Positions 27,101 to 57,877 of a stretch of 57,877 bases of DNA are shown piece by piece. Each line of letters starts with the position of its first letter. The stretch's first letter is position 1. The notes below the pieces were generated by a model. It searched no databases. It was not told where the DNA came from and saw nothing but the letters and a program-made list of their open reading frames with translations. Made by a program: the position numbers and the translations under genes. The DNA is from Candidatus Omnitrophota bacterium (GTDB lineage: Bacteria; Omnitrophota; Omnitrophia; JAHJGZ01), in the NCBI GenBank assembly GCA_018823795.1, contig JAHJGZ010000041.1, forward strand, positions 1 to 57,877. Reading direction: 5' to 3'.

Positions 27101-30100
27101 GACGATGCGATTTTACGTTTTCCGCAGGGGGCTCAGAAAATTATGCGGCGATATGTGCATGAGATGAGGGAAAATATAGAAACAGCGATTGAAAATGAAA
27201 GGGCAGGAGGGGTTGGCATTGATATTTTTTTCCTATTCCGGCTTCATAAATCGCTGGTACGGGGAGAATACAAGCCGCTTCCGGCAAGAGTAACATTAGG
27301 TTTATCAAGGCAGGACGAGAGGGAATTTGCACATAAGAGACGCAGAATAGCTGATCTCATAAGTAACCGTATCCGTGAAAGAAAACGGTTAGCCGCAAAG
27401 GGGGAGATTGACGGTTTAGGGAAGATAACCAGCGAGGAAGTTCTTCTTGCATTACAGTATTATATTCCGAAAGTAATAGCGGCAGCGGATCGGGCATTGA
27501 CGCGCGGAAAGGTACATGAATTTTTCAGTTTGCGGCAATACATTCTGTATCCATTTGATCGCGGTTTAGTTGTTGATGACAAAAGAATAACGTTTAACGG
27601 GTCGTTGCGGGGCGATGAGACGACTGCCTACCATGAGTTTATTCAACCGCATCTAGATCGGTTTGAAGAAAAGCTCCACGAGTTGCGCGAACATCATGAA
27701 GGTATTATTGGCATAAAAGAAGCAGACCATGATAAAGAAAAGATTTTTGAAATTACGGTAACCGGGACTCAGACGTATGATGGACATAAAACACGATATG
27801 TGGTTGATTACAAGGGTATCCGAGGGTATGTAAACTTTTTTGAAGGCCCCGGTTCGATACGGGTACCACGGATGACGTATCAAGCGGTGAATAAAACATA
27901 TCGAGCAGTGCTCCTCCATTGCCAGTGGGAAGATGGTATCCCGACCCCATACTTTTCGATACAAAAAGCGCATGATGTTATGTTGAAAAAAGCAGCTCGC
28001 GAGAACCAAAACATAGAAATAAAGATCGTTGATATTGCCCGCTCGAGTATTTCCCATAAGCCGTGCGGTTTTCATGCTGAATACATCACGCCTGATGGTG
28101 AAATTATTAAAAGGTACATTAATCCGACACTTATACCGCAGTCGATGTTTCGTAAAGGGCTTGAGAAGTATCGGGGCAGTACCGTACAGGCAGTCCCGAT
28201 ACTCAGTGATAAGGGGGAATGGACCTTTTCACTGGTTGCGCCAGAACACATGTCGGTCACTGACGAGTGGCAAGAAATCGAATCTGCGTATCGATCCGAC
28301 AAAGAAGTCATTGTTGAGATTTTTGACATTGCACGATATTCCGACCAGCGGCCTTCAGGATTTGTTGTAAAATATAAAGGGACCATTGAGGGTTTTGTTC
28401 ATTATCGTAATACTGCCATCTGGGGTTTTACCAGAAGATCTGAAGCATCGTTGCATGAGTCTATCGGTAAGAAATATACCGCAACAATTACCTCACTCGG
28501 CAAGAAAGGCCGTATGCGGCCAACATTTATGCTGCACTATGAGGTAGCGGACGATGAATCAGAAGAAGATTACGGTGTTTTACTTTCGTCTGCGAAAAAA
28601 CCACTCCTTACTTTTGGCGAACAATTACTCCAGGCACTGCATCAAAGGTTGGGTGGAGATGAAGAACCTGAAGGTGGCATTATATCGAGCCTTTTAACCA
28701 GTCTTTTCGCTTTAAGCCTTGCTTTTCTCATCCTTTTACCGTATGCCACTGACCTTTATGGCCTGAGTGCAGTTTTTATGCATCAGGTGACGTCATTCCT
28801 TGATTGGGTAAAGAGTCTTGCAACCGTATCTCATGTGATTTCTTTTAATACTTCTGCTATTACGACCGGCCTTCTTTCTTCGATCATCATCGGGCTTGGC
28901 ATTAAGGATGACAAGAGCTCATTTTCTGATCCTGAAATCGAAAACCAAGCCCAAATATTTGAACAGGCTATGCAGCATTATACAAAAAAGGAGTATGAAG
29001 AAGCCTTAGATTGTTTTGAAAAGGTTGTAGGCTGTCCCATTACGAATTTTCTTACCGGGAAAGCGTATTACTGTATAGCAGATATATATGATGAATGGGA
29101 TAACATTGAAAGAACAGTTGACGCATGTAGTCAGGCGGTTGAAATTTTAAAAGAACATGCTCCTAAAACCATGGACCTCTTTAGGGCGATTGTATCCTTA
29201 AGTGTTTACTATACACAAGCGCATGAGGAATTAAAATCTCTTGAGGTAGCCCGAAAAGGATTGCGCATGATGAGGACCGATAAGGTTAAACACCCTTATT
29301 TAGAGGCAAGCCTTTTCCAACGTATAAGCGATGCGTATTACAATATGGTTATCTGGAATTTTCAAGAAGAATCGCTACAACAATCACTCTCTTATGCTCA
29401 GAAAGCCCTTAAAATATATCAAAGAATGGGGGACCGTGTTAGGACACGTGATCGGGAAAGATTTGGTAAAGCAAGAGCAGATACGTTAAGTACCTTCGCT
29501 CTTATATATTATCGAGATGCACAATATGACAAAGCACTTCATTATATGACAGAAGCAGCTGCCATACGGCGTGACCATAAGCATGCACAGGTCTTTTATG
29601 CACGATGTTTGGCAGCAGGTGGGGAACATACGAAAGCGCGCACAATACTGGAAGCGTATGATCCTTATGAATTTAATCATTCATTTCAGTGGGAATGGCT
29701 TGATACCATCGGTGAACTATGTCTACGAGAAGCAGATGAATTACAGAAAGCAAACCAGTTTTCAGAGGCAAAAGAAAAGTATACACACGCACGAACGTAT
29801 CTTGAGGAAGCATATGCGCTTCATAAAGCACATGATCTGGAGAAAGGGCTGGCCGTCACGATACAATTATATCATATCGCAGCAGCATATAGCGGTGAGG
29901 GAAATACAGAAAAAGGATTACACGCTATTCGAGCATGTCTAAACGAAATAGTCAGGCAGGAAGGGCGTATATCTCAAGGCGATGAAATATCCCTTGATGA
30001 ACTTATTGAACGTGTAGAAAAACGAGACGGCCAGAAGTATCTCAATATTCTCAAGAAAGACGTATTATTACTTTTAAGAAAAATATATCTTGAACAGGGG

Positions 30101-55219: not shown

Positions 55220-56416
55220 ATGGTAAAAGTCATAGCCGTCGCAAACCAAAAAGGTGGATGTGGTAAAACAACAACTAGTATTAACCTCTCAGCAAGCCTT
55301 TCATTTTTAGGAAAAAAAGTATTACTTATCGATCTTGATCCACAAGCACATAGTTCTATCGGTTTGGGTGTAAACCCTGAGGAGCTTGAGCAGAGTCTTT
55401 TTGATGTATTTGATGAAGACGGAAAAGATGTCGATATTAGTGATGTCATTGTAAAGGGTTACAAGAATTTAGATTTAGCGCCGGCACAGGTTATTTTAAG
55501 TGCTATTGAACAAAAACTCTCTGGGATAAAGGGGCGTGAAAGTAAATTAGCAGAAAAAATAAAGACGCTGAAAAATGCCTATGATTACGTTATTATTGAT
55601 TGTCCGCCGAGTTTAGGGCTCCTTACCTTTAATGCATTATGTGCTGCAGATGAAGTGCTTGTTCCTGTTGAACCGTCTTTTTTTTCTTTACATGGGTTGA
55701 AGAAATTACTTGAAACAGTTGCCTTAGTACGTGAAGTTACTGGCCGCGCCATAACGACTCATTCGGTCATAACAATGTTCGATCGTCGCACAAAACATTC
55801 GCGAGAGCTTGTTGAGGACATCAAAAACTTTTTTGGTGATAATAATCTGAGTGTCATTGTTCGTAAAAATATCAAGTTACAAGAGGCAGCACAAGCGGGT
55901 AAGCCCATTACCGAATTTGATAAAAATTCGCTTGGATTTAAAGATTACATGCAAGTTGCTGTTGAAATAATGGAGCGGTGTGGGAGGGATGACATTCCTT
56001 CGATTTCATCCTTTTTGGCAAAAGAAGATCCTTCTCCTTTTTCGGTACGTGAAGAGGTCTCCGGTAACGATGTGGTAGCAACTGCTACTACTGTTGCTAT
56101 CGAGATACAGACTGCTTCTCGTACAGACGTTGCAGTTAGTTGTTATCCAAAAGTGGTAACGGGTGGTGTGCTTTTTTCTTTTTGTGCTCAAGAAGCTCAA
56201 TGTATTGAAATAGCGGGAGATTTTAATAATTGGGAAAGGAAAAAGTTGAATACCCCCGGTTTAAGTGAAACAACATGGACAACTGTAGTACCGCTGAGTT
56301 TAGGAGTGTATCGTTACAAATACGTTGTTGATGATATATGGGTTGCCGATCCTGCTAATGAGTACAGAGCTCCTAATCCTTTTGGTGGTGAAGATTGTAT
56401 CTTTGAGGTTTCATAA
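55220..56416 (+). CDS. ParA-family ATPase fused to a CBM48-like domain
   Basis: 398 residues. Residues 1-260 are a complete ParA/Soj ATPase: deviant Walker A KGGCGKTTT, LLIDLDPQAHSS, Walker B VIIDCPPSLGLLT, VPVEPSFFSLHGL, and the later TMFDRRTKHS and FDKNSLGFKDYMQ. A Ser/Thr/Ala/Val-rich linker follows (about 262-310). Residues about 312-398 form a CBM48/AMPK glycogen-binding-like beta-sandwich: GVLFSFCAQEAQCIEIAGDF, then NNWERKKLN, SLGVYRYKYVVDDIWVADP and NPFGGEDCIFEV. ParA proteins segregate chromosomes or position structures. The carbohydrate-binding tail is an unusual addition. Its own promoter precedes it. No parB is in the window. Confidence 0.93.
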   Translation: MVKVIAVANQKGGCGKTTTSINLSASLSFLGKKVLLIDLDPQAHSSIGLGVNPEELEQSLFDVFDEDGKDVDISDVIVKGYKNLDLAPAQVILSAIEQKLSGIKGRESKLAEKIKTLKNAYDYVIIDCPPSLGLLTFNALCAADEVLVPVEPSFFSLHGLKKLLETVALVREVTGRAITTHSVITMFDRRTKHSRELVEDIKNFFGDNNLSVIVRKNIKLQEAAQAGKPITEFDKNSLGFKDYMQVAVEIMERCGRDDIPSISSFLAKEDPSPFSVREEVSGNDVVATATTVAIEIQTASRTDVAVSCYPKVVTGGVLFSFCAQEAQCIEIAGDFNNWERKKLNTPGLSETTWTTVVPLSLGVYRYKYVVDDIWVADPANEYRAPNPFGGEDCIFEVS

Positions 56417-56468: not shown

Positions 56469-57428
56469 ATGGAAGAGCATACGAATAATCAAAAACGCAC
56501 ACTAAGGGATGTTTCGCATGTATTCCTCTCCTCATTAGAGGAACAAGAGGGAGAGGCTTCCATTAATTCTTCTTCTACCCTATCAAATGAATCGAGCACT
56601 ATTCACCGCGCATTAAATCAAAAAGATATTCCTCAGCAAAATACATACCGTTTTTTACCTTCTTTGAAAACGGTGAGTATTTTTCCCATTGTCTATCCTA
56701 CCGCATCGTTATTGTTCCATATTGAACTTGCGAGGACTTTGGTGCATGCACCCTATAAAATATATGTTGTTTCGGCGAATCCCCATCAAGATTCATGGCG
56801 ACATCTTGAAAACAATTTTGATGTACCCGCGTATGTCGATATCGATTTTTCGAAAAGAATACACACATTTAAATTATACGAAAACGTTGAATTGCTTGTT
56901 ATTGCAAAAGAAATATTTCCGGATTTTTTTACTTTTAAAACAGTAACGTCGATGGCACCACAGGTCTTTGATACTGAGGGAAAGACCGCACTTTTTCTCC
57001 TCGATTTTTTTAATGTTGATTTTTATCTTCAAGAAAAAATTTCATCTCTTGTAGATAGTGTATTACTGCTTACCTCATTGCGGGTCGAAGATTTGCGGAT
57101 GGCGTATAAGCTGATTAAGACGAGTCAAATCTTTTGTCCACATACGACATTTAATATTATAGGTGATGAAAAGCTTGATTCGGCACGTACGGAGTTTTTA
57201 ATGAAAGAATTGAATGCCATCACTTCTCGTTTTTTGAATCTCACGGTTCATCATATCGGTTCCTGCGCCTGCAAAACATTGTTACACGACAGCGGTGCTC
57301 GTTGGAATAAACAGGATAGCGCGCGATATCTCGACATAGATACGAACTTTTTAGCCACGATAAAAAAGGATACCTGGTCGGAAGAATTATTGAGCTTGTA
57401 TCAAACCGTTATCGGTTTAGTAAAGTGA
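56469..57428 (+). CDS. MinD/ParA-like protein without a P-loop
   Basis: 319 residues, 52 bases after the ParA-CBM48 gene and probably in the same unit. The first 65 residues are polar and probably disordered. The rest resembles the MinD/FlhG fold: a first strand followed by a helix where the P-loop should be (SIFPIVYPTASLLFHIELAR, with no GKT), a KIYVVSANPHQDSW strand, LLLTSLRVEDLRMAYKLIK matching the TTPE..S..DAY..IK element, FNIIGDEKLDSARTEFLMKEL in the position of the usual NR stretch, and a final LTVHHIGSCAC. ATP binding is therefore unlikely. A regulatory partner of the upstream ATPase is a reasonable inference. No ribosome binding site is seen. Confidence 0.6.
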   Translation: MEEHTNNQKRTLRDVSHVFLSSLEEQEGEASINSSSTLSNESSTIHRALNQKDIPQQNTYRFLPSLKTVSIFPIVYPTASLLFHIELARTLVHAPYKIYVVSANPHQDSWRHLENNFDVPAYVDIDFSKRIHTFKLYENVELLVIAKEIFPDFFTFKTVTSMAPQVFDTEGKTALFLLDFFNVDFYLQEKISSLVDSVLLLTSLRVEDLRMAYKLIKTSQIFCPHTTFNIIGDEKLDSARTEFLMKELNAITSRFLNLTVHHIGSCACKTLLHDSGARWNKQDSARYLDIDTNFLATIKKDTWSEELLSLYQTVIGLVK

Positions 57429-57444
57429 AGGATGTCCGAAACAT

Positions 57445-57877
57445 ATGAAAAGAAAATTATTTACAGTCGAAAATAGGTCATATGTGCGGGGAGAGATTAT
57501 TAACGATCTTAACGATAATCTTCATGAATTCTGTGATGTGACATGGTCAGTGCTTCCGAAGCCGCTTATAAGTGACGTTGATATCATTGATATCCTCTTG
57601 CTTAATACAAACGGACAGCTGAGTGTTATAAAAGTTTTAGAGCGGGGGGATTATGCCGCACCATTAGGGAAAGTAATCCTTGATTATGCAACGCTGAACG
57701 CGCAACGGGAACGCCTGAGGAAGCTCTATTCCCATGAACATATTGATACGTTAAAGCATATCATTGTGAAGCTTTTTATACCAGGTGATACGGAGCAGAT
57801 TCAACGTGTCGTATCGTACTTGTCATTTCCGGTCGATATCTATCGTTACCGGGCAATTATGACGGGCGGGGAGGCAG
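57445..57877 (+). CDS. Hypothetical protein, 3' end outside the window
   Basis: The frame is open from ATG 57445 to the window edge (144 codons). The ATG lies 16 bases after the previous stop; GAAGGA is upstream but somewhat distant. DVDIIDILLLNTNGQLSVIKVL followed by GKVILDYATLN recalls the core of PD-(D/E)xK nuclease-fold proteins (D...hhxxxGxxxhhExK...QhxxYa), but the E-x-K triad is not intact, so the assignment is weak. The C-terminal part is missing. It is probably the third gene of the ParA-CBM48 unit. Confidence 0.7.
   Translation, partial: MKRKLFTVENRSYVRGEIINDLNDNLHEFCDVTWSVLPKPLISDVDIIDILLLNTNGQLSVIKVLERGDYAAPLGKVILDYATLNAQRERLRKLYSHEHIDTLKHIIVKLFIPGDTEQIQRVVSYLSFPVDIYRYRAIMTGGEA

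Follow-up and report, generated by a model that had tools for sequence, protein, structure and literature searches.

What would a ParA-type ATPase do with a domain otherwise known from the glycogen-binding subunit of AMPK, the animal energy sensor? In bacteria, the positioning of cargo is generally the task of ParA/MinD ATPases, and a gene that joins the two modules is found near the end of the window, i.e., the whole analysed stretch of 57,877 nucleotides (contig JAHJGZ010000041.1 of a Candidatus Omnitrophota bacterium). The gene (55220..56416, forward strand) starts with ATG and encodes 398 amino acids in an uninterrupted translation, without a frameshift; its limits are based on the open reading frame and on 106 aligned non-redundant relatives. 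The first-pass annotation had described a complete ParA domain, a flexible linker and a CBM48, an architecture that Pfam confirms for both domains, and that PDB profile searches, the AlphaFold model and Foldseek confirm for the tail. Upstream lies the gene run rplU-rpmA-obgE-proB-proA-nadD-apbE (names read from the translations, ApbE by Pfam). Window 8975-48832 is taken up by one open frame of 13,285 amino acids that ends 0.5 kb before rplU; by eye, this giant multi-domain protein contains HAD, HD, histidine-kinase, response-regulator, radical-SAM and peptidase-like stretches.

The ParA ATPase domain comprises residues 1-255 (55220..55984, forward strand), and its closest sequence family is Soj/ParA. 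The Pfam model AAA_31 matches it across residues 3-174 (3.8e-59), and further ParA/MinD models extend to about residue 250; the Pfam matches of both ParA and the tail were judged against the curated cut-offs, and all exceed them. The domain carries the deviant Walker A motif KGGCGKTT, the Walker A' motif DLDPQAH and the Walker B motif VIIDCPP, and the alignment columns of K11, K16, D40 and D127 are each conserved in 106/106 relatives. Two further residues, C14 (KGGCGKT) and H44 (DPQxH), are family signatures, each present in 106/106, with the cysteine count partly biased for the contig set because one scan pattern contained KGGCGK. Judged from the sequence only, the basic residues of Soj-type non-specific DNA binding are retained (R190 in 104/106, K/R219 in 93/106). 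The same applies to the residues at the inferred ParB pocket, whose positions were placed by sequence offset from the pocket defined in Myxococcus (PMC12462528): Y61 is kept in 92/106, E97 in 101/106, as is the loop L/V/I132-G133-L/F/I134, and the loop SLGLLT adjoins the pocket position.

The ATPase domain is followed by a low-complexity flexible linker at about residues 256-312 (55985..56155, forward strand), without a profile match and of variable length (10-166 amino acids in 102 relatives). The C-terminal domain, an AMPK-beta-type CBM48, covers residues 313-398 (56156..56413, forward strand), as supported by PF16561, the PDB profile search, the model and Foldseek. The first-pass placement at residues 310-398 thus held for the domain type, and the start lies nearer 313 than 310. 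The profile search proposed at that stage returned AMPK1_CBM (PF16561) across residues 324-382 at 5.1e-10 (39.8 bits, cut-off 26.8) and CBM_48 (PF02922) at 2e-6 (28.5 bits, cut-off 22.4). When a profile of 56 homologous tails was compared with the PDB, the AMPK beta-1/beta-2 CBM ranked first (2.4e-15, with beta-1), and the next matches were mostly LSF1, SEX4/DSP4, GlgB and other glucan-active proteins. In the AlphaFold model, the domain has the beta-sandwich fold of the family and reaches a pLDDT of 93.4. The best Foldseek matches of the modelled tail are all AMPK beta CBMs (e.g., 1z0m, TM 0.76/0.87); branching enzyme and SEX4 come next.

The carbohydrate-binding residues can be followed in the alignment with AMPK beta-1. 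W338 (56231..56233, forward strand) corresponds to W100 and is a tryptophan in 102/106 relatives; K367 (56318..56320, forward strand) corresponds to K126 and is K or R in most relatives and Q in 10; W374 (56339..56341, forward strand) corresponds to W133 and is a tryptophan in 101/102 domain-bearing relatives. The ligand triplet among these 102 reads WRW in 52, WKW in 39, WQW in 10 and WKK in 1, and both tryptophans are among the invariant columns of the 56-sequence tail alignment. Mutation of W100, K126 and W133, among others, markedly cuts the glycogen binding of AMPK, and glycogen allosterically inhibits AMPK through W100/W133 (PMC2642990). As judged by sequence and model, the tail is a true AMPK-beta-type CBM48 with a conserved predicted glycan site.

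The fusion is not a chimera of the window's assembly, because the tail recurs in 102/106 non-redundant relatives, 101 of which keep both glycan-stacking tryptophans. The relatives were drawn from 285 Omnitrophota genomes (phylum inferred from named relatives) and a GTDB contig set. The fusion is found in Omnitrophota and in relatives from at least eight other bacterial phyla, the carriers being Omnitrophota, Auribacter, Planctomycetota (Phycisphaerae, Sedimentisphaerales), Rokubacteria, Eisenbacteria, Latescibacterota, Desulfobacterota, Acidobacteria and Myxococcota.

The downstream genes were missed in the earlier reading: they encode an adaptor with an N-terminal peptide resembling those of ParA partners, and a third component, so that the window holds all three parts of a cassette. 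The partner gene (56469..57428, forward strand) encodes 319 amino acids, with an N-terminal peptide followed by a degenerate FlhG/MinD-like domain. The conserved peptide QKRTLRDVSHVFLSS (56490..56534, forward strand) was located by a motif HMM, and a helix is predicted at residues 12-25 in the model. Its consensus, [KR]xL[GP]RGLxD[VI]SHLFLS, stands at the start of the next gene in roughly half of the loci. The HMM was built from 37 peptides and scored on all open reading frames of at least 60 amino acids in the ParA loci. All 48 top-scoring frames, 37 of them training sequences, are the gene directly downstream of ParA on the same strand, and the motif lies at the true or extended N-terminus. 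A peptide gene is lacking in the remaining loci, about half of the total, among them 23 from Omnitrophota in which a different conserved gene is the neighbour. In Phycisphaerae-type loci (e.g., L045, L046, L076, L090), which have no recognised separate partner gene, a conserved stretch QLESISATADELL is located within the ParA-CBM48 linker and could be an internal partner peptide. Other Omnitrophota have an element 'ITHYF' in their c2 genes, which was considered as an instance of the motif and rejected, because the small basic protein that contains it is a different one.

The protein body behind the peptide varies: it is mostly FlhG-like, and otherwise consists of an HTH with a coiled coil, of a small cysteine-containing domain, or directly of the third domain. 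Pfam gave no convincing match and no ParB domain for the window's partner, and a ParB domain is absent from all partners examined. The partner was rejected as a plain ParA paralogue, since its profile points to FlhG/FleN (1.9e-26 in the PDB profile search); hhalign aligns it with the host genome's own FlhG at 99%, and the FlhG structure 4rz2 ranks first in Foldseek. The partner model has a mean pLDDT of 75, and values near 90 are reached in much of the core of the domain. In the FlhG-like domain (56658..57422, forward strand; hhalign alignment), the P-loop is lost, with IVYPTAS in place of KGGVGKT; it is intact in some partner relatives of Eisenbacteria type (such as L035, L036 and L047). No flhF or flagellar genes occur in the partner's neighbourhood, and a true FlhF-FlhG-FliA set is found on another host contig (L003). 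Four close relatives without the CBM (L055, L062, L077, L080) still have the peptide, which argues for its association with the ParA domain.

An N-terminal peptide carried on an otherwise unrelated body is a general feature of the partners of A/D ATPases (PMC10241942). In Myxococcus xanthus ParB, the ParA-binding motif relies on L11, R13, L15, L18 and I19, and R13 is required for ATPase stimulation (PMC12462528). In an ungapped overlay of the 37 peptides on ParB, R/K is found at R13 in 33/37, L/I at L15 in 37/37 and V/I/L at L18 in 37/37; L occurs at L11 in only 15/37, the I19 position is mostly S, and the partner motif runs on with HLFLS. Identity of the two motifs was not supported by the HMM test, as the host genome's ParB scores -2.9 bits, and it is kept solely as a resemblance in spacing. 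The partner peptide thus appears similar to the ParA-activating peptide of ParB in its position and in part of its residue spacing; homology is not demonstrated.

The third gene (57445..57877, forward strand) is cut by the contig end and encodes a putative NucS-like domain (PD-(D/E)XK-type) in which the catalytic E-x-K is lost. The domain is present in 30 loci including the window, and in the 29 others it lies right after the partner (17) or is fused to it (12); no homologue away from the partner was found among the ParA-CBM loci retrieved. The PDB profile gave weak matches only, i.e., 3dnx (0.026), lactate dehydrogenase (1.1) and NucS (1.1), of which 3dnx and NucS are, in our reading, proteins of PD-(D/E)XK type. 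Elsewhere in Omnitrophota, the domain has relatives that carry a PilZ fusion (L129 484-1479, L130 463-1371) and show a weak NucS_C match (0.003-0.01). The catalytic E-x-K is replaced in the cassette proteins, and the canonical EYK is kept in a distant relative in the host genome (L133). These features tentatively suggest a nuclease-fold domain without activity. Host contig C129 opens with a close, non-identical copy of the rest of the third gene (window 57445-57877 versus L128 2-547), most plausibly from a near-identical strain or from an overlap in the assembly; two close strains may be mixed in the host genome, whose contamination is 5.6%. There, the third gene is followed by an H+-pyrophosphatase, a zinc-ribbon coiled-coil protein, mraZ, rsmH, ftsL and a PBP, as in L034, L038 and L078.

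The genomic context was considered with regard to the possible ligand. The host genome has GlgA (7.6e-85, contig C243) and a cluster on contig C47 (L132, C47:9000-27000) which, by sequence reading, contains TreS/maltokinase-like, GlgB, TreZ, GH57, TreY, MscS and GlgP genes. The first-pass annotation had asked for conserved carbohydrate-binding Trp and Lys residues and for glycogen synthesis genes. The former are conserved with the substitutions given above for the middle position, and the latter are present; neither a general loss of the ligand-binding aromatic residues nor a lack of storage polysaccharide pathways was found, since the tryptophans are kept in the homologues and genes for glycogen synthase, branching enzyme and phosphorylase are all present in the host. 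In the host genome, glgA is directly adjoined by a stand-alone CBM48 protein of 128 amino acids with a lysine-rich N-terminus (L004 1495-1881, C243). A stand-alone CBM48 also abuts a glgA match in genome G005 (C52:27028-27273 and 27308-28027), and in a Deltaproteobacterium (L074 6267-6554) one of 95 amino acids precedes the ParA-CBM gene by about 1.3 kb.

Co-occurrence was examined in 50 Omnitrophota (36 with and 14 without GT5) and in 12 single genomes. The fusion is present in 24/36 Omnitrophota that have GT5 and in 3/14 of those that lack it (Fisher p = 0.005, with no correction for kinship). Of the 12 carriers from various lineages, eight have a clear GlgA; in this set, only weak GT5 matches occur in Phycisphaerales, Sedimentisphaerales and Rokubacteria, and none in one Myxococcota. 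In 10 Omnitrophota loci, a GH57 gene (PF03065, 5e-60 in L086) shares the operon of ParA-CBM and is located two genes upstream of it, and GlgB is nearby in one Desulfobacterota locus. GlgA, GlgP and GH13 are absent from three fusion carriers, namely G119 and G147 (Omnitrophota, completeness 93% and 91%) and G293 (Myxococcota). Glycogen as an obligatory ligand is weakened by these carriers, and glycogen is not proven as the ligand because some carriers are without GlgA and GlgP.

Of the first-pass interpretation, the union of ParA with CBM48, the conserved glycogen-contact residues and the glycogen genes of the host are supported, while the suggested positioning or segregation of granules stays a possibility. 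The preferred explanation, held tentatively and at somewhat less than an even chance, is that the window's gene encodes the ATPase of a widespread, undescribed ParA-type positioning cassette, in which the ATPase itself would contact an alpha-glucan. Its broader form is possible and is held with a little more reserve: an energy-driven partition of storage polysaccharide, shared by many phyla, in which ParA would hold the alpha-glucan through its own CBM48 and would be cycled by a dedicated adaptor. The glycan binding, DNA binding, activation by the peptide, positioning and cargo that we infer would combine as follows. ATP-bound ParA dimers would bind nucleoid DNA non-specifically, and the two CBM48 modules of the dimer would hold glycogen or another alpha-glucan. 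The N-terminal peptide of the partner would bind the dimer, as that of ParB does, leading to ATP hydrolysis and release from DNA, and the FlhG-like and NucS-like parts may dimerise and anchor the partner. Repeated binding and release could then result in a glucan that is spaced or partitioned along the nucleoid, or tied to the divisome neighbourhood.

The anatomy of the cassette, i.e., the ATPase motifs, the basic residues, the residues at the inferred ParB pocket and the partner peptide, fits a ParA-type cycle and in this way supports positioning. Further support comes from the CBM48 fold with its ligand residues, the recurrence of the third domain, the GlgA, GlgB and GlgP genes of the host, the higher frequency of the fusion in genomes with GT5, and the GH57 and GlgB neighbours. 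In known systems, the activating partner rides on the cargo. Here, unlike in those systems, the putative cargo-binding domain sits on the ATPase, which counts against positioning, as do the score of the host's ParB against the motif, the carriers lacking GlgA, GlgP and GH13, and the half of the loci without a peptide gene.

A close rival of positioning, although somewhat unlikely in itself, is that the protein acts as a glycogen sensor. In this scenario, an alpha-glucan on the CBM48 would sequester or switch ParA, and carbon stores would gate a process such as cell division. The nearest relatives of the tail are the CBMs of AMPK beta, and AMPK is inhibited by glycogen (PMC2642990). The cassette is also located just upstream of mraZ-rsmH-ftsL-pbp in four loci of the window's class (L034, L038, L078, L100) and on host contig C129; this dcw neighbourhood favours the sensor, but it is seen only in the window's class, and other carriers have other neighbours. 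The long linker of variable length argues against tight allosteric coupling and favours tethering over allostery, and conservation alone cannot separate sensing from tethering.

The third explanation, which is less likely again, considers the CBM48 as an interaction module for another glycan or for a protein, with ParA moving a different cargo, e.g., an envelope complex. The carriers without glycogen genes favour the binding of something else by the CBM48, and the CBM-less relatives pair with the same kind of partner. An additional argument comes from a conserved gene just upstream of ParA-CBM in L086 (7414-7989) and 22 other Omnitrophota loci, often preceded by GH57. Its product has the N-terminus KKEIYEHLAxIYLDxSSKKKK, one transmembrane segment and, by eye, an outer jelly-roll-like domain, and it is possibly a membrane adaptor; the portion EIYEHLAKIYLDxS is vaguely like the partner peptide. 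An extension of the peptide motif to this family (c1) and to c61 is no more than a guess, as the motif-HMM scores are near zero, and the mismatch of the transmembrane protein counts against the explanation. Moreover, the retention of both ligand tryptophans in 101/102 domains is hard to square with a pure protein-protein module. That the protein is simply a ParA for the partition of a chromosome or replicon, its C-terminal domain being decorative, is suggested by the Soj/ParA affinity and the retained DNA-binding residues and is very improbable, and a place in a standard partition pair was rejected, given a separate canonical soj-parB pair on host contig C118 (L002; KGGVGKT, DPQGN, ParB starting MKKNALGKGLSALIP), a neighbour without a ParB domain and a tail conserved over many phyla.

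The proposed positioning cassette can be compared with several known systems. It shares with Soj/ParA-ParB the ATPase fold, the basic DNA-binding positions, the LGLLT loop beside the ParB pocket and, in the partner peptide, the R13/L15/L18 spacing of ParB (LxRxLxxV); it differs by the lack of a ParB domain/CTPase, by the KGGCGKT and DPQxH signatures and by the CBM48 tail. With the AMPK beta glycogen-binding domain, it has in common the fold and the residues equivalent to W100/K126/W133, except that its CBM48 rides on a ParA ATPase rather than on a kinase scaffold subunit, and that its glycan binding is predicted. The partner's main domain resembles FlhG/FleN in fold and profile, including a short N-terminal helix before the ATPase-like domain, and deviates from it in the missing P-loop of the window's partner, another N-terminal motif and the lack of an FlhF neighbour. 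The McdA-McdB system and other A/D ATPases likewise combine a ParA-family ATPase with a co-encoded unrelated partner bearing a short N-terminal peptide, and with a possible cytoplasmic, carbon-related cargo (PMC10241942, PMC6328274). Unlike in McdA-McdB, the ATPase carries a CBM48 itself, the partner is degenerate FlhG-like and not McdB-like, and the putative cargo is no protein microcompartment. PhaM, PhaF and PhaH also represent a bacterial way of distributing a carbon store along the nucleoid, but they are non-ATPase DNA-binding granule proteins for PHB, and the review describing them does not mention glycogen (PMC13052382).

Glycogen goes unmentioned in a 2025 review of bacterial organelle positioning. 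The first-pass annotation knew of no described system of this kind, and no description of a ParA-CBM48 fusion with such a partner and third component was found in the open-access literature, where absence is weak evidence. In the literature found, no carbohydrate polymer is described as a cargo or signal of ParA/MinD ATPases. The peptide shared by the partners provides a handle for finding the partners of orphan ParAs. The cassette also provides a way to relate carbon stores to the organisation of the cell in lineages that have received little study, and lets one test whether bacteria actively inherit or sense glycogen. If the broader explanation, an energy-driven partition of storage polysaccharide, is true, the cassette would rank as the first active system known to position a carbon store of the glycogen type.
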